A stretch of DNA of 41,264 nt from Pseudomonadota bacterium (GTDB taxonomy: Bacteria; Pseudomonadota; Gammaproteobacteria; Burkholderiales; SG8-39), in the NCBI GenBank assembly GCA_025352885.1, contig JANXRZ010000098.1:1-41264 (forward strand), written 5' to 3'. The notes under the pieces were generated by a model. It searched no databases. It had not been told where the DNA came from and was given only the letters and a program-made list of their open reading frames with translations. Within the stretch, counting starts at the first letter, position 1, and the number at the start of each line of letters is the position of its first letter. The translations under genes and the position numbers were made by a program. Shown here in pieces: positions 7,336 through 41,256 of the stretch.

Positions 7336-9483
7336 ATGGTGGCAACTGCGCTCGGGCTCGAAGACGCATTCCGTGCCACTTTCGAGCAGGCGGCCATCGG
7401 CATTGCGCATTCGTCTCCCGACGGTCGGTTCCTCCGCGTCAACCGCAAGTTCTGCGAAATGGTCGGGTACCCGGAAACGCCGTTGCTCGAGCGCACGTTC
7501 CTCGACCTCACGCACCCGGCGGACGTGCAGGTGGCGCGCGATCGCATGGCGCGCATCCTCAATGGAGAGGCGATCGCTTCGTCCTACGAGCCGGAGAAGC
7601 GCTACATCCGCAAGGACGGTTCGGTTCTCTGGGTCATGGTTGCGGTGGCGCTCGTGCGAACGAAGGAAGGCACGCCCGATTATTTCATTACGGTGTTGCA
7701 CGACATCACCGAGCGAAAGCGCTCGGAAGCCCTGACGCAGCTCGAGCACGTTATCGCCCGGAGCCTCGCCGGCACCGACTCGGCAGACAACACGCTGAAA
7801 GCAGTCATTCGCGCGGTCTGCGAATCGGAGAAGTGGGAACTTGGCCGCTATTGGCGCGTGGACGAGGCCGCGGGCTTGCTGCGCGCCGGTGTGCCGTGGT
7901 GTGCGCCGGACCCTGCCATCGAGCGGTTCCTGGCGACTGGGAAGGAGGTGACGTTCGTGCGCGGCGCCGGCTGGGTGGGGCGCACCTGGGCATCGGGTAA
8001 GCCGGAATGGATACCGGATATCACCCTGGACGACCGCCTGGTGCAGAAGAACATCGTGTGGGAAACCGGCCTGCGGGGCGTGTTCGCCTTCCCGGTCGTC
8101 GCAGAAGGGGCGACGGTCGGCGTGCTCTCTTTCGCCAGTCGTGAGATCCGTGAACCGGACGGGCGCCTGCTGGCGACGGCGCGCGCCATCGGCAGCCAGG
8201 TCGGGCAGTTCCTGCGCAGCAATGAAGCGGAGGAGAGCCTGCGTCGGTTCCGTGCCGCGATGGACGTCTCGGCGGACTTCGTGCTGCTGATCGACCCGGT
8301 TTCGTTACGCTATCTGGATGCGAACGACGCGGCCTGTCGGGCGCTCGGCTACAGCCATGCCGAGATGGTTGCGCTCGGTCCGCTCGATATTTTCTCGGCA
8401 ACTCGCGAACAGCTCACGGCGGCTTATGCCAGGCTCATCGCGGGTGAGCTGGAGGCGACGGCGGTCCACGGCGTGTACCGGTGCAAGGACGGGTCGTCCA
8501 TGCCGGTCGAATCTTTCCGCCGGGCGGTCCCGTCGCTGAACGGAAACGTCATTGTGAGCGTTGCACGCGACGTCACCGAGCGCAAAAAAGGCGAAGAGGC
8601 CTTGCGCAGGTTCCGCCTGGCGATGGATGCGACCTCCGATGCCATTTACCTGACCGATCGCGCCACGTTGAGGTTCCTCGACGTGAATGAGGCGGCGTGC
8701 CGCATGCAAGGGTGTACGCACGAGGAGTTGATGAGGCGCAGTCCCATCGACGTCCTCGGCCAGACCGAAGAGGAGATTGCGGCGATTTACGATTCGGTGA
8801 TCGCGGGCGGGCGAGGCACCGACCCCCTCGAACTCATGCGAATACGCAAGGACGGCTCGGTCGTGTGGGTTGAGCTGCAGCGGCGGGCCCAGCACACGCC
8901 GGAGGGGTGGATCATCATCACGGTGGTGCGCAACATCACCGAACGTAAAAAGCTCGAAGAGCGCCTCCAGCAGCAGGCCAACTACGACAACCTCACGCAA
9001 TTGCCGAACCGCGCGCTGTGCTACGACCGCCTGCGGCAGGCGCTGATCCAGGCGAAGCGCAAATCGGGCATCGCGAGCCTGCTCTTCATCGATCTCGACA
9101 AGTTCAAGTACGTGAACGACACCTTCGGGCATGGGGCCGGCGACGAACTGCTCCAGCAGGTAGCCAAGCGACTGCTGTTATGCGTGCGCGCCGGCGACAC
9201 AGTAGGGCGCCTCGGGGGCGACGAATTCGTGATCGTTCTCCCTGAAATCACGGAGGCGAAGGATGCGGGCCTGATCGCGCGCAAGGCTATCGACACGCTT
9301 GCAGCCTCATTCCAGCTCGACGGTCATGTGGCCTCCATCTCGGCCAGCATCGGCATCGCTTCGTTCCCGGCCGACGGGGATTCGGTCGAGATCCTGATCC
9401 GCAACGCCGACTCGGCTATGTTCAAGGCGAAGGAGGCCGGCCGCAACGGATGCGCCTTCTATTCGGCCGACACGCCTGCCTAG
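7336..9483 (+). CDS. Multi-sensor diguanylate cyclase (PAS-GAF-PAS-PAS-GGDEF)
   Basis: 715 residues; ATG preceded by a G-rich Shine-Dalgarno (GGGGGGAGGG). Order: PAS at about 5-130 (ending VLHDITERKR), GAF about 135-295, PAS about 300-420 (VARDVTERKK), PAS about 425-540 (VVRNITERKK), GGDEF about 550-710. The active-site signature GGDEF is at 627-631. An intact RxxD inhibitory site (RAGD, 618-621) sits five residues before it, so product inhibition is expected. DNLTQLPNR marks the domain start. There is no EAL domain and no membrane segment, so it is a cytosolic c-di-GMP synthase reading internal cues. Probably co-transcribed with the upstream REC-GAF-LuxR gene (38-bp gap). Confidence 0.95.
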   Translation: MVATALGLEDAFRATFEQAAIGIAHSSPDGRFLRVNRKFCEMVGYPETPLLERTFLDLTHPADVQVARDRMARILNGEAIASSYEPEKRYIRKDGSVLWVMVAVALVRTKEGTPDYFITVLHDITERKRSEALTQLEHVIARSLAGTDSADNTLKAVIRAVCESEKWELGRYWRVDEAAGLLRAGVPWCAPDPAIERFLATGKEVTFVRGAGWVGRTWASGKPEWIPDITLDDRLVQKNIVWETGLRGVFAFPVVAEGATVGVLSFASREIREPDGRLLATARAIGSQVGQFLRSNEAEESLRRFRAAMDVSADFVLLIDPVSLRYLDANDAACRALGYSHAEMVALGPLDIFSATREQLTAAYARLIAGELEATAVHGVYRCKDGSSMPVESFRRAVPSLNGNVIVSVARDVTERKKGEEALRRFRLAMDATSDAIYLTDRATLRFLDVNEAACRMQGCTHEELMRRSPIDVLGQTEEEIAAIYDSVIAGGRGTDPLELMRIRKDGSVVWVELQRRAQHTPEGWIIITVVRNITERKKLEERLQQQANYDNLTQLPNRALCYDRLRQALIQAKRKSGIASLLFIDLDKFKYVNDTFGHGAGDELLQQVAKRLLLCVRAGDTVGRLGGDEFVIVLPEITEAKDAGLIARKAIDTLAASFQLDGHVASISASIGIASFPADGDSVEILIRNADSAMFKAKEAGRNGCAFYSADTPA

Positions 9484-36895: not shown

Positions 36896-38201
36896 GGGTG
36901 GAACTTCCCAAAAGGCGCGTCAGCGTATAGATGAGCAGCCCCGCCGCGCCGCCGACGAGCGTCCCGTTGATGCGGATGTACTGCAGGTCCGGGCCGATGT
37001 TGCGTTCGAGTTCCTTCACGAGCGTCGCGTCCTGCCACTCGTTGATCTGCCGCTCGATGAAGCGGCCCACGCCCAGCCGATGCTCTTCGACGAACGGCGG
37101 CACGGCGAGGATGACCTGATCGTTCAGCCAGCCGCGCAGCGTCTCGTCCTCTTCAAGACGTCTTGCGACCGCGCAAAGGAAGTCTTCGGCGCGGCGCTTC
37201 ACGACCGAATCGGGTCTCGCGAGATCGGCATCAAGCCACGCGCGGAATTCTGACCACAGGCCGCCGAGATACCCCGCGAGCGCCGGGTTGCGAAGCAGGT
37301 CGTCCCTGAACACTTCGACCTTGGCGCGCGTGTTCGGGTCCATCCGGAGCCGGGTGACGAAATCCCGCGCCAGCACGTCGAAGCGCCGGCGCAACTCGTG
37401 GTCCGGGTCTTCGAGCACTTCGCCAAGCCGAGTGATTGCCGCATCGAGCAACCGCGTGGCCGCCTTGTCGTCGAGGTGCACAACCTGGTTGACCCACTTG
37501 AGCAGGGGCATCTGGGCGGCGATTTCCCTGCGCAGGAACTGGCGCGTCTCCTCGCGTCTGAGGAGCTCGCGAATGGCCGAGAGCGCCTGGTCGAGGAGCG
37601 CATGGTGGCGGCGGTTCTCGGTGAGGACGTCGAGGAGATCGGCCACCAGCGTCGCCGCATCCATCCTCGAAAGCTTCGCGGTGACCGTTCGTTGCACGAA
37701 GTCGCGGATGCGCTCATCTCCCAACGCCCCGGCCCCGTAAGCGACGGCCCTCGTGAAATAGCCTGCGAGCATCGCTGCGTTCTCGCTAACCAGGAGCCAG
37801 CCGGACAGCTGGAGCGCGGGGTTGAATTCCCGAATTCGCGCAATGAGGGCCGGGGCCGACAGGAACTGCTCCTGGATGAACTCTCCCAGGCCCTGCGCTA
37901 TGCGCGCCTTATTCTTTGGGATGATCGCGGTGTGGGGGAGCGGGATGTTCAGCGGATGACGGAAGAGGGCGACCACCGCAAACCAATCGGCAAGTGCCCC
38001 GACCATGGCCGCCTCGCACGTAGCGGCGAGATAGCCCATCAGCGGGTGGCGGCTCATCGATACTATGGCGAGCACATACAAGGCACCCACGAGCACCAGG
38101 AGGCCGGTGGCCGCGCGCTTGATCCGCGCGAGCCTCTCATCCTTGGCCGCGGATGAATCCGGCCGCACGGGAGCCGTCGGTGGACCGTCCTCGATGGTCA
38201 T
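36885..38201 (-). CDS. DUF445 (YjiN) family membrane protein
   Basis: 438 residues from the ATG at 38201, which overlaps the preceding AI-2E gene's stop by ATGA. Two N-terminal hydrophobic segments with the family signature GYLAATCEAAMVGALADWFAVVALFRHPL, followed by IPHTAIIPKNKARIAQGLGEFIQEQFLS-type sequence (here with LP before HTAIIP). A long helical soluble region (about 110-405) precedes a final membrane helix with INGTLVGGAAGLLIYTLTRLL. Function of DUF445 is not established; an envelope role is assumed. Part of a coupled three-gene membrane-protein unit. Confidence 0.9.
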   Translation of the reverse strand: MTIEDGPPTAPVRPDSSAAKDERLARIKRAATGLLVLVGALYVLAIVSMSRHPLMGYLAATCEAAMVGALADWFAVVALFRHPLNIPLPHTAIIPKNKARIAQGLGEFIQEQFLSAPALIARIREFNPALQLSGWLLVSENAAMLAGYFTRAVAYGAGALGDERIRDFVQRTVTAKLSRMDAATLVADLLDVLTENRRHHALLDQALSAIRELLRREETRQFLRREIAAQMPLLKWVNQVVHLDDKAATRLLDAAITRLGEVLEDPDHELRRRFDVLARDFVTRLRMDPNTRAKVEVFRDDLLRNPALAGYLGGLWSEFRAWLDADLARPDSVVKRRAEDFLCAVARRLEEDETLRGWLNDQVILAVPPFVEEHRLGVGRFIERQINEWQDATLVKELERNIGPDLQYIRINGTLVGGAAGLLIYTLTRLLGSSTHVG

Positions 38202-39214
38202 ATCAGTCCGCAATCGGCGAGCTCCTGCTTGAGGTAAGCATAGTAGACGGGCGCCGCAATCGCACCAGCGATGCCGAAAGCCGCTTCCATTACCAACATC
38301 GCCACGAGCAGTTCGGCGGCGCGCGCGTTGATGCGCGTACCGATGATCCGCGCGTTGAGGAAATACTCGAGCTTGTGCACGACGACTAAAAAGGCCAGTG
38401 AGGCCAATGCGATCTGGGGCGAGTGTGCAAGGCTCACCACCACGACGATGCTGTTCGAGATGAGGTTGCCCACCACGGGCAAGAGGCCCGCGATCAGCGT
38501 AACGCCGATCAATGCCGGCACGAACGGCAGCTTCACGCCCAAGGCTGGCAGGATGATCGCGAGGTAGATCGTTGTGAAGACCGTATTGAGGGCCGCGATG
38601 CGCCCTTGGGCGAAGACGACGCGCCTGAAAGCTTCACCGAGCCGCATCACCCGCTCGGTCAAGGCGATTGAAAGCGGCCCCTTGGGGAACGGCCTTGCCG
38701 CACCCCCCAGCGACACCATGGCGCCCACGATCATGCCGACGAGGATGTGCAGGGTAATGCGTCCTGCGGTGGTCCCCATCAGCTGGAGTTCCGGGGTGTG
38801 CGAGCGCAGCCAGCCTGCGAGGGCCTGGCGCAATTGGTCGGCATCTTCCGGAAGCCTCGCAACCACCCATGGCGGGAACGACTCGCGCGCCCCCTCGACG
38901 ATGTCCGCCATGCGTTTGAGGAGCCCGGCAAGGTTGCCGATGTCGCTCCTGAAGAAGGCAATCGCGCCAAAGACTGCAAGCGCTACGGTGCCGACCACCA
39001 GGGTCGTGAGGACGACGACGGCAACCACGCGCGAGCGCTCGCTCGAAACCCTGCTTTGCAATACCGGGGCCAGCGCATGCACGAGCTCATAGACGAGCAG
39101 GCCCGCGAACAACGCGGATAGCAGGTGCAGCTTCAGTATCGCAATGAGCGCGGCGGCAGCCAGGAGCCAGGAGATTTGCTCCGCCCGCGCTGCACTGAGG
39201 ATCGATGAGGCCAT
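38198..39214 (-). CDS. AI-2E family transporter (second copy, divergent)
   Basis: 338 residues from the ATG at 39214; a GTG four codons upstream is possible but abuts a terminator's U-run. Membrane plan as in the PerM/AI-2E family: an N-terminal helix pair, a third helix, a long amphipathic loop (about 85-150), then the C-terminal block (FVPALIGVTLIAGLLPVVGNLISN, ALASLAFLVVVHKLEYFLNARIIG). It is only distantly like the copy at 32699-33760. The stop overlaps the DUF445 start (ATGA). An intrinsic terminator lies just 13 bases before the ATG, so expression may be attenuated or start from within the leader. Confidence 0.88.
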   Translation of the reverse strand: MASSILSAARAEQISWLLAAAALIAILKLHLLSALFAGLLVYELVHALAPVLQSRVSSERSRVVAVVVLTTLVVGTVALAVFGAIAFFRSDIGNLAGLLKRMADIVEGARESFPPWVVARLPEDADQLRQALAGWLRSHTPELQLMGTTAGRITLHILVGMIVGAMVSLGGAARPFPKGPLSIALTERVMRLGEAFRRVVFAQGRIAALNTVFTTIYLAIILPALGVKLPFVPALIGVTLIAGLLPVVGNLISNSIVVVVSLAHSPQIALASLAFLVVVHKLEYFLNARIIGTRINARAAELLVAMLVMEAAFGIAGAIAAPVYYAYLKQELADCGLI

Positions 39215-39226
39215 GCGCGATTCCAC

Positions 39227-39264
39227 AAAAAAAGGCCCCCGGAAATGAGCAGTAACCGGGGGCC
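39227..39264 (-). terminator. Rho-independent terminator
   Basis: GGCCCCCGG (39234-39242) and CCGGGGGCC (39256-39264) are perfect complements around a 13-base loop, and on the minus strand the stem is followed immediately by seven Ts (39233-39227). It is the clearest intrinsic terminator in the window. It stops minus-strand transcripts that begin in the divergent region before they reach the AI-2E family gene. Confidence 0.85.
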
Positions 39265-39309
39265 CTACACTCGCCAGATTTCAGGGGAGGAGGGAGAACT
39301 GGCGAATGC
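39227..39309 (-). ncRNA. Candidate small RNA with anti-Shine-Dalgarno loop and intrinsic terminator
   Basis: Read on the minus strand, a perfect 7-bp stem (TCGCCAG at 39305-39299 with CTGGCGA at 39277-39271) closes a 21-base loop containing CTCCCTCCTCCCC. Six bases later a perfect 9-bp GC-rich hairpin is followed by seven T residues. This two-hairpin, roughly 80-nt layout with an exposed CCUCCUCCC sequence recalls anti-SD-loop sRNAs such as the CcsR/cuckoo class known from alphaproteobacteria. A GACAAT box (39321-39316) is placed about right for a -10; the -35 is poor. No minus-strand gene upstream would otherwise need this terminator. An alternative is an attenuator in the leader of the 39214 gene. 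Confidence 0.55.
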
Positions 39310-39426
39310 GGCCCCATTGTCGCCCGGGAGGTGCGCGAACTCTGTGCGCTGTCTCACACAAGGGTGCCGCAACACGTGCGCAATCGAACAGAGTGTCGGA
39401 CCCTCGGCGACGTAATTTTGCGAGCG

Positions 39427-40854
39427 ATGGCACTCGCGCGCTCAATTGAAAAATTCGAAACGCTCCTTTGGAATACTGGTATTGCGCGACGCGCAGTTTT
39501 CACGATCGTACTGGTCGCTGCCATTTCGGCATGCGCGACGCTGCCGAACGTCGATGCGCTGCTCGACCGCCCTGCGTCGAGCGTGCGGTTCCAGACCGCC
39601 GCAGGGCCGTTGTCGGAAAAGAAAAGCGCCGCGCTGCTTGCGGCACTCAAGCGCAAGGCAGGCGACACGGATATCCTCGACAAGCATGTCGCAGTCGAAA
39701 ATGCGTTGGTCGAAACCCCGCTCGTCCTTGGCAACCGCGTGAGGCTCCTGCACGACGGTCCGCAAACGTATGACGCAATGTTTTCGGCGATCGCGTCGGC
39801 GCGCGACCACATTCACCTCGAGACCTATATCTTCGATGAAGACGAAATCGGCCACCAGTTCGCTGATGCCCTGATTGCCAAGCGAGGCCAAGGGGTCCAG
39901 GTCAGCGTGATCTACGACAGCGTCGGTGCGATCAAGACGTCGCGCGCGTTTTTCGATCGCCTCTCGGCAGTGGGCGTCGAGATGCTCGAATTTAATCCCG
40001 TCAACCCGCTGACGGCGCGCGCCGGATGGCAGGTGAACAATCGCGACCATCGGAAGCTGCTCGTCGTGGACGGTCGAACTGCTTTCGTGGGCGGCATCAA
40101 CATCAGCGGCGTGTACTCGAGGGGCTCCTGGCCAAGGGGCGGCTCGGGCGGATCGCACGCCAACGTTCCTTGGCGGGACATGCACATGCAGATCGATGGG
40201 CCGGTTGTCGCGGACTACCAGAAGCTTTTTGTCGAGACCTGGGAGAAGCAGAAAGGTCCGCGCCTCGCGCCGAGGACCCTGTTCCCGGCGCTTAAGGACG
40301 AGGGCCGTGAGATCGTGCGCGCGGTCGGCAGCACGCCCGATGATCCTTACAGCCAGATGTACCTGACGTTGCTGTCCGCCATCCGCAGCGCTGAAAGGGC
40401 CATCCACCTCACGAATGCCTATTTTGTTCCCGACCCTAACCTGCTCGAGGTTCTGCGCGCAGCTTCGGCAAGGGGCGTGGACGTGAAGCTGATCCTCCCG
40501 AGCAGGAGCGACTCCGCCGTGGTTCTGCATGCTGGCCGCTCGCACTACAGCGACCTGCTGGCGGCGGGCGTGAAGTTGTATGAACGGCGCGACGCATTGC
40601 TGCATGCGAAGGCGGCGGTTATCGACGGCGTCTGGTCGACTGTGGGATCTACGAACCTCGACTGGCGCAGCTTCCTCTTGAACGACGAACTGAACGCCGT
40701 GGTGCTGGGCCTCGAGTTCGGCCAGCAGATGGAAGCGGTATTTGCACGCGACCTGGCCGCGTCGGATCCTATTGAACGCGAGACGTGGGAGCGCAGGCCT
40801 CTATCGGAGCGGGCTAAAGAATGGGGCGCCCGGCTTTTGGAGCGGCTGCTTTGA
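39427..40854 (+). CDS. Phospholipase D/cardiolipin synthase-like lipoprotein
   Basis: 475 residues from the ATG at 39427, chosen because it begins a signal with basic residues, a hydrophobic run (FTIVLVAAISAC) and a lipobox Cys; a GTG 32 codons upstream is the alternative. Two HxKx4D motifs are complete: HRKLLVVD (His208) and HAKAAVID (His393), each followed by the G-G/S-x-N element. Spacing and ETYIFDEDEIGHQF, WRDMHMQIDGPVV match bacterial cardiolipin synthases of the ClsB/ClsC kind. As a predicted lipoprotein it would act at the periplasmic membrane surface. Divergent from the AI-2E gene, across the sRNA/terminator region. Confidence 0.9.
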   Translation: MALARSIEKFETLLWNTGIARRAVFTIVLVAAISACATLPNVDALLDRPASSVRFQTAAGPLSEKKSAALLAALKRKAGDTDILDKHVAVENALVETPLVLGNRVRLLHDGPQTYDAMFSAIASARDHIHLETYIFDEDEIGHQFADALIAKRGQGVQVSVIYDSVGAIKTSRAFFDRLSAVGVEMLEFNPVNPLTARAGWQVNNRDHRKLLVVDGRTAFVGGINISGVYSRGSWPRGGSGGSHANVPWRDMHMQIDGPVVADYQKLFVETWEKQKGPRLAPRTLFPALKDEGREIVRAVGSTPDDPYSQMYLTLLSAIRSAERAIHLTNAYFVPDPNLLEVLRAASARGVDVKLILPSRSDSAVVLHAGRSHYSDLLAAGVKLYERRDALLHAKAAVIDGVWSTVGSTNLDWRSFLLNDELNAVVLGLEFGQQMEAVFARDLAASDPIERETWERRPLSERAKEWGARLLERLL

Positions 40855-40971: not shown

Positions 40972-41256
40972 ATGAAAAGCTCTCTGCTGCCCCTGGCCCT
41001 CATCGGGGCCGTTGCACTGGCCGCCTGTGAACGTACCGTCGTGACCCCGCCGAACGCGGCTGTCATCACACCGCCTGCTGCCGTCGTAAACAACAACCCG
41101 GTGCCGGTTCCCGGACCCGCGGGCCCGCAAGGTCCGCAAGGCGCCTCCGGTTCTCCCGGTGCTGAAGGCAAGAGCCGCGACACTATCGTGGTTGCGCCGG
41201 CCACGCCTTCGTCCAGCCCCTCGTCCTCAGACAGCAGCTCGACCTCGAAGAACTAA
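40972..41256 (+). CDS. Small lipoprotein with collagen-like Gly-X-Y repeats
   Basis: 94 residues; GGAGAACAACC precedes the ATG. Lipoprotein signal with LAAC (modified Cys19). A Pro/Val/Asn-rich stretch (about 25-47) is followed by about six Gly-X-Y triplets (GPAGPQGPQGASGSPGAEGK, about 48-67) and a Ser-rich tail. Short collagen-like tracts of this kind can trimerise but are usually longer. It is probably surface- or periplasm-exposed and low in structure. TTGAC-GTA-GTCAA (40944-40956) upstream is a short palindrome overlapping a possible -35 box. Confidence 0.8.
   Translation: MKSSLLPLALIGAVALAACERTVVTPPNAAVITPPAAVVNNNPVPVPGPAGPQGPQGASGSPGAEGKSRDTIVVAPATPSSSPSSSDSSSTSKN

Follow-up and report, generated by a model that had tools for sequence, protein, structure and literature searches.

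A predicted small RNA with an anti-Shine-Dalgarno loop and a Crp/Fnr-type promoter-like element, opposite a cardiolipin synthase gene

Features of the locus and predicted fold

The window, i.e. the whole 41,264 nt stretch of DNA that was analysed, includes a predicted short RNA unit on the minus strand, flanked by a divergent cardiolipin synthase (PLD) gene and by a gene for an AI-2E family transporter, which is followed by a DUF445 gene and a gene for a small MtN3_slv-like protein (the latter scoring slightly under its cut-off). The features are as follows.

39427..40854, plus strand: divergent cardiolipin synthase (PLD) gene; PF13091, and TIGR04265 at 304.5 bits (cut-off 290); a neighbour of the RNA at 9 of 37 member loci
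39375..39390, plus strand: second palindrome, facing PLD; 14/17, with a -10-like box near 39411-39417; weak, as chance gives 1.8 such scores per window size
39343..39358, minus strand: predicted Crp/Fnr-type palindrome TGTGAGACAGCGCACA, centred at -41.5 and with a degenerate left half; from alignment, score 16/17
39316..39321, minus strand: -10-like box GACAAT; position matches in aligned copies
39227..39309, minus strand: small RNA gene with a predicted 83-nt transcript; from the fold and 76.9 bits with covariance model R3, the start being predicted from promoter spacing
39267..39309, minus strand: hairpin 1, arms 39309-39299 and 39277-39267; from the fold, both partners vary in 7 of 9 modelled pairs (36 sequences)
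39285..39293, minus strand: loop motif CCTCCTCCC of hairpin 1, a complement of Shine-Dalgarno sequences; from the sequence, CCTCC in 25 of 36 member loops
39227..39266, minus strand: intrinsic terminator, arms 39266-39256 and 39242-39232, T-run 39233-39227; from the fold, both partners vary in 8 of 11 modelled pairs
38198..39226, minus strand: downstream AI-2E family transporter gene, start at ATG 39214 or GTG 39226; PF01594; in 1 of 37 member loci and outside the conserved unit

The elements described in an earlier note on this DNA are present on the minus strand, namely a 7-bp perfect stem (TCGCCAG/CTGGCGA) with a pyrimidine-rich loop complementary to Shine-Dalgarno sequences, and a 9-bp perfect GC stem followed by seven T's. 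Folding lengthens the first stem to 11 bp, including two G-U pairs, and places the second inside an 11-bp stem. The folding energy of the 86 nt from 39312 to 39227 is -41.0 kcal/mol (z -5.33), which none of 200 dinucleotide shuffles equalled, and hairpin 1 folded alone has a z of -5.67. No ATG start is found in the 83-nt unit. As the same note had stated, no minus-strand gene accounts for the terminator, because the upstream PLD gene sits on the other strand, and the ATG of the AI-2E gene is the 13th base after the T-run. The terminator is absent from the list produced by a simple terminator scan because that scan takes loops of 3-8 and the loop here is 13; a sigma-70 promoter scan listed none at the 5′ region of the RNA. 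CCTCCTCCC is not rare by itself, with 44 occurrences in the genome and 59 for the reversed control. What stands above chance is the combination of motif, hairpin and terminator, plus its recurrence in other genomes, and on this comparative evidence the conserved small-RNA gene at 39309-39227 is very probably real.

Related copies and covariation

The proper anchor for finding relatives is the divergent cardiolipin synthase gene, not the AI-2E gene. A hairpin-plus-terminator scan together with the DNA upstream of PLD genes located copies on the strand opposite to PLD in genomes G051, G056, G052 and G018, and a more diverged one in G045. When the window and the first four were aligned, 97.1% of cells were paired (31-56% with slid partners), and covariation was modest, 21 of 500 shuffles reaching its score because the rows are so few. 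Model R2, made from those five rows, was run on the 98 genomes of the home family and gave at least 78 bits in 8 of them, the own genome and 7 of the 14 of genus g15, so that strong copies have a patchy distribution. Second copies were found in G051, G055, G050 and G052. Among four genus-mates the sole readable copy is that of G004; G002 and G003 gave no match at E 0.1, and the R2 match in G001 is its anti-hemB RNA, not an RNA of the window type. The R2 listing also contains other anti-hemB RNAs, and weak copies may have been missed in it because the filters were strict.

R2 matches left out of training were those of G103, G023, G013 and G075, for an absent upstream palindrome, and those of G012 and G091 after inspection. 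Model R3 was then made from 13 training rows (92.7% of cells paired) covering the RNA only, the promoter not being in the model, and these rows were partly picked after the upstream DNA had been seen. Applied to 399 genomes of the order, it gave a match at E 0.01 in 79, many of the inspected ones being anti-hemB RNAs. Outside the home family, at least 50 bits were reached in G462, G324, G410 and G185 (family f46) and in G034 (f11), and 17 of 74 f46 genomes had matches at E 1e-4, at 22 places in total. Matches at G051:C91, G050:C340, G050:C143 and G050:C452, and order-wide R3 matches without a locus, lie outside the inspected set. A search of plasmid records with the promoter and RNA of one member gave no match.

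An alignment of 36 members, which was fitted to R3 and is biased towards it, and whose scores are also favoured by kinship among the rows, has 89.7% of cells paired (slid controls at most 57%) and 15 of 20 pairs that change on both sides; none of 500 shuffles reaches any of five measures. One of the 36, L325 (G487), has no palindrome and an odd loop and is a doubtful member. The G045 copy, L158, keeps palindrome and loop, yet gives no R3 match at E 10, and is placed outside the 36 as a tentative member. CCTCC is absent from 11 of the 36 loops, and CTCC, CCTC or CCCC occurs in 34. Both the fold and these loop counts indicate an exposed loop, complementary to Shine-Dalgarno sequences, that is kept in relatives. 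The covariance-model search that the earlier note had proposed returned covarying stems and a largely retained loop, and the outcome that it named as contrary, a terminator alone retained behind another gene, did not occur.

Promoter-like element and flanking genes

The 16-bp upstream palindrome is of the type TGTGCGC..GCGCACA. The gap between its end, CACAG or CACGG, and the -10-like box measures 20 nt in each of the 14 home-family copies; the palindrome is therefore centred at -41.5, and the predicted start is the first base of hairpin 1 in the window. Class II activators of the Crp/Fnr type bind at -41.5, and the palindrome with its -10 box has the layout of such a promoter, with a predicted start site. 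An independent test was provided by the copies in other families, 22 in f46 and 1 in f11, that had been found by the promoter-free model. Of these 23, 21 scored at least 12/17 and 18 at least 14/17, whereas 5000 random stretches of equal length, which were drawn from those loci and include true sites, gave 173 and 35 (216 and 59 in a fresh draw). When a spacing of 19-21 nt was allowed, 20 of the 23 reached at least 14, against 79 of the 5000; the best spacing was 19 nt in four copies and 21 nt in two. Both outside copies without a palindrome are in G487. None of 12 weaker hits reached a score of 12/17. The palindrome of the window scores 16/17 despite its poor left half-site. Random sequence of window size yields 1.8 scores of at least 14, so the pattern is convincing only when in place, and in the genome as a whole the palindrome with at most one mismatch is barely above the control (153 vs 124).

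A Crp-like gene was present in 5 of 37 member loci (one being the doubtful L325), and cNMP_binding and HTH_Crp_2 domains were identified in both of the Crp-like proteins examined from member loci. Contig C171, which makes up 60 kb of the 4.88 Mb of the own genome, contains 5 of the genome's 10 perfect palindrome sites and also carries genes for a Crp-like protein (HTH_Crp_2 only), a second cardiolipin synthase with the palindrome upstream, MlaE and DUF883. A probable second copy of the RNA is located at the 3′ end of this Crp-like gene (C171:17784-17705, minus strand; L250:2206-2285, minus strand). It scores 18.3 bits with R3 and combines a CCTCCC loop and a terminator with one half-site and a -10-like box at the matching positions.

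Crp/Fnr-type control of the RNA is probable, given the predicted binding site and a regulator suggested by the gene neighbourhood. The best surviving alternative is that the RNA is a small RNA with a C-rich loop under a different regulator or sigma factor and that the palindrome belongs elsewhere. The poor left half-site in the window and the two G487 copies that lack a palindrome would fit this explanation, as would the fact that the Crp-like regulator is drawn from the neighbourhood alone, but palindrome, -10-like box and RNA start keep almost constant distances in all 14 home-family copies and in most outside copies, which makes this alternative unlikely.

The genes beside the RNA vary. In the 37 member loci, AsmA was found in 13 (L316 and L327 overlap and share one of these genes, which enters the count twice), PLD in 9, the Crp-like gene in 5 and AI-2E in 1. 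Where inspected, in genus g15, the AsmA gene is convergent towards the RNA and overlaps its terminator. From these counts and the orientation of AsmA, the RNA looks like a unit of its own and the AI-2E gene like a local newcomer. Within the genus, 1 of 5 genomes carries the AI-2E gene, and within the family 11 of 98 do. In the 10 other AI-2E loci of the same family, for which 260 bases ahead of the estimated start were inspected, R3 found no strong match (best 10.5 bits), and one of the AI-2E genes (L149) is preceded by a plain terminator without a C-rich hairpin. The nearest named AI-2E matches are mostly from betaproteobacterial MAGs, which suggests that the host is a betaproteobacterium. 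Upstream scans of 80 named AI-2E loci, three of them with fewer than 300 bases there, likewise gave no strong R3 match and two weak ones (22.5 and 14.6 bits). Four Rhodocyclales AI-2E loci with CTCCTCC near -300 were rejected as copies, there being no T-run at that place.

The earlier note had also offered a riboregulatory leader of the AI-2E/DUF445/PQ-loop unit, in which the terminator would stop most transcripts and a signal would permit passage. The short distance from the T-run to the AI-2E ATG fits such a cis-acting attenuator, and a simple scan listed no promoter-like site between them, which is why read-through into AI-2E may be possible and relevant in this genome only. As a conserved role, however, a leader is not supported, given the single AI-2E gene among 37 member loci, the outcome of the R3 searches at AI-2E loci and the convergent AsmA gene that is the other neighbour where inspected in g15, and it is distinctly improbable. 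Less probable still, to the point of being hardly credible, is the view that the element is only a two-way terminator plus a fortuitous hairpin in the space that separates divergent or convergent genes. Next to AsmA, two convergent units would share the terminator, and the terminator part alone also matches the other strand, but hairpin 1 covaries in its own right, a promoter-like element precedes it and no same-strand gene lies ahead of the RNA in the window.

After the cardiolipin synthase gene, at 40972-41256 on the plus strand, there is a small collagen-like (GPQGPQG), lipoprotein-like reading frame, a relative of which lies between the RNA and the PLD gene in L252 and L254.

Known RNA families, candidate targets and proposed function

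At Rfam cut-offs the window gave no match, and none of 19 member loci reached a cut-off. Nine matches to the stretch were found below threshold, of which five are RNAs with C-rich loops. The best is ar14 (RF02344, alphaproteobacteria; E 0.0011), which resembles the window RNA in its CUCCUCCUCCC loops; however, the window RNA scores 28.0 bits where 58.8 are required, and ar14 has more C-rich loops. Anti-hemB (RF02837, Burkholderia RNA 7) shares a CTCCTCCC hairpin and a GC-rich terminator, and the terminator of the anti-hemB RNA of the own genome is 84% identical to the window RNA over ∼38 bases (DNA similarity, near E 0.001). The window RNA nevertheless scores only 20.6 bits against a cut-off of 49.5, and anti-hemB has a middle hairpin. 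The usual place of anti-hemB, which we take to be between hemB and engB, also differs from a position flanked by PLD and AI-2E. The window RNA is not the anti-hemB copy, because contig C144 of the own genome carries a true anti-hemB RNA (C144:16347-16438; L141:1948-2039, plus strand; 73 bits), and 87 of 98 family genomes likewise have one above the cut-off. Upstream of the anti-hemB RNA in L141-L143 is a GGAACTT...TCTTA-like stretch that presumably resembles an ECF sigma promoter.

The three other families score lower. CcsR1 (RF02791, Rhodobacter; cuckoo RNAs) has a CCUCCUCCC loop and a terminator, and the window RNA reaches 13.6 bits against its cut-off of 65.3. CcsR1-4 arise by processing from an operon that also contains the DUF1127 gene ccaF1 and lies behind an RpoHI/RpoHII promoter (PMC10253847), whereas the window RNA is a single unit with a Crp/Fnr-type palindrome and has PLD upstream on the other strand. 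Betaproteobacteria_toxic_sRNA (RF02278) comprises short terminated RNAs with CUCCUCC hairpins, given as 57-92 nt in B. cenocepacia (PMC4603805), but the window RNA scores 16.7 bits where 50 are needed and several positions of the first stem are unpaired. The last, sX13 (RF02232, Xanthomonadaceae), is a short structured RNA with C-rich loops, for which the window RNA scores 15.5 bits, again against 50; sX13 has three such loops and adjoins polA (PMC3771888), while the window RNA has one loop and PLD and AI-2E as neighbours. A survey of titles and abstract openings in an open-access collection of papers found nothing on an RNA of this kind with a Crp/Fnr-type site. With covarying stems, its own conserved promoter-like element and no Rfam match at cut-off, the element is best described as a putative uncatalogued small RNA with an anti-Shine-Dalgarno loop, as the earlier note had suggested.

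In Xanthomonas, the C-rich loops of sX13 act independently of Hfq to repress mRNAs that carry G-rich motifs close to the start (PMC3771888), and since this repression of mRNAs with G-rich starts is shown there, sX13 is the best working model for the window RNA. CCUCCUCCC loops in rhizobia have been termed anti-Shine-Dalgarno (PMC3927594). Hfq is encoded in the own genome and may be unnecessary for the window RNA. The 10-base complement of the loop, AGGGGAGGAG, shows no excess in the genome, with 5 sites against 9 for the control; four of the five lie apart from the RNA's own complement. One of the four, AGGGGAGGAGG (L329:1500-1520, plus strand; C186:28830 in the own genome), serves an HD-GYP response regulator as ribosome-binding site, lies 5 nt ahead of the ATG and has 11 bases complementary to the loop. 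When 60 ORFs of the window, some of them spurious, were compared, the best loop duplex (-28.8 kcal/mol) was that with a PAS/GAF/GGDEF protein (7336-9483, plus strand), in whose start region, CAGGGGGGAGGG, the G-rich run touches the ATG. These are two candidates and no proof of a link to c-di-GMP. Judged by complementarity to predicted targets, anti-Shine-Dalgarno repression by the RNA is likely.

Comparison of the copies establishes, at the level of sequence, covarying stems, a T-run, a C-rich loop, and a palindrome and -10-like box whose positions hardly vary. The explanation that we favour, with reasonable but limited confidence, is a member of a new small-RNA family that would act in trans, be switched by a Crp-like protein and block Shine-Dalgarno sites, both the switching and the blocking being predicted. 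A regulator of the Crp/Fnr family would bind the palindrome as a class II activator, with polymerase starting at about 39309 and the transcript terminating after 83 nt at the hairpin 2 terminator. The exposed CUCCCUCCUCCCC loop would then pair with purine-rich ribosome-binding sites of several mRNAs and reduce their translation, in the manner of sX13 in Xanthomonas. The divergent cardiolipin synthase gene would belong to the same regulon, and the AI-2E gene probably came to lie behind the terminator by rearrangement, with some read-through possible. Since the palindrome is at a near-fixed place and a Crp-like gene adjoins the RNA in some genomes, inducer and targets are directly testable.

More tentatively, and with chances a little short of even, a Crp/Fnr regulator may drive a multicopy family of anti-Shine-Dalgarno RNAs through which an envelope and cardiolipin regulon, present in several families of one order, exerts post-transcriptional repression. 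The regulator would raise cardiolipin synthase and other envelope genes directly, while the RNAs would lower mRNAs with strong ribosome-binding sites, perhaps including those of c-di-GMP enzymes. RNAs with C-rich loops are known as separate families in alphaproteobacteria, Xanthomonas and Burkholderia. A repeated origin of anti-Shine-Dalgarno RNAs is suggested by the presence in one genome of the window RNA, a true anti-hemB RNA and the probable second copy.

Several further RNAs were seen during the searches. Three copies of the RNA lie within ∼8 kb in L333 (G539:C20:36000-52000). Additional two-hairpin RNAs with CCTCC or CTCCCTCCC loops occur in L212, L213, L217 and L220 (G067, G100 and G099), with R3 scores of only 21.6-25.6 bits. 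A different C-rich-loop RNA of genus g15, with GCTGGCAGCTTCTCCTCCTCC and variants, was found in L205, L206, L207, L209, L211, L214, L215, L216 and L222, where it sits just past the apparent end of a lysine-rich reading frame.
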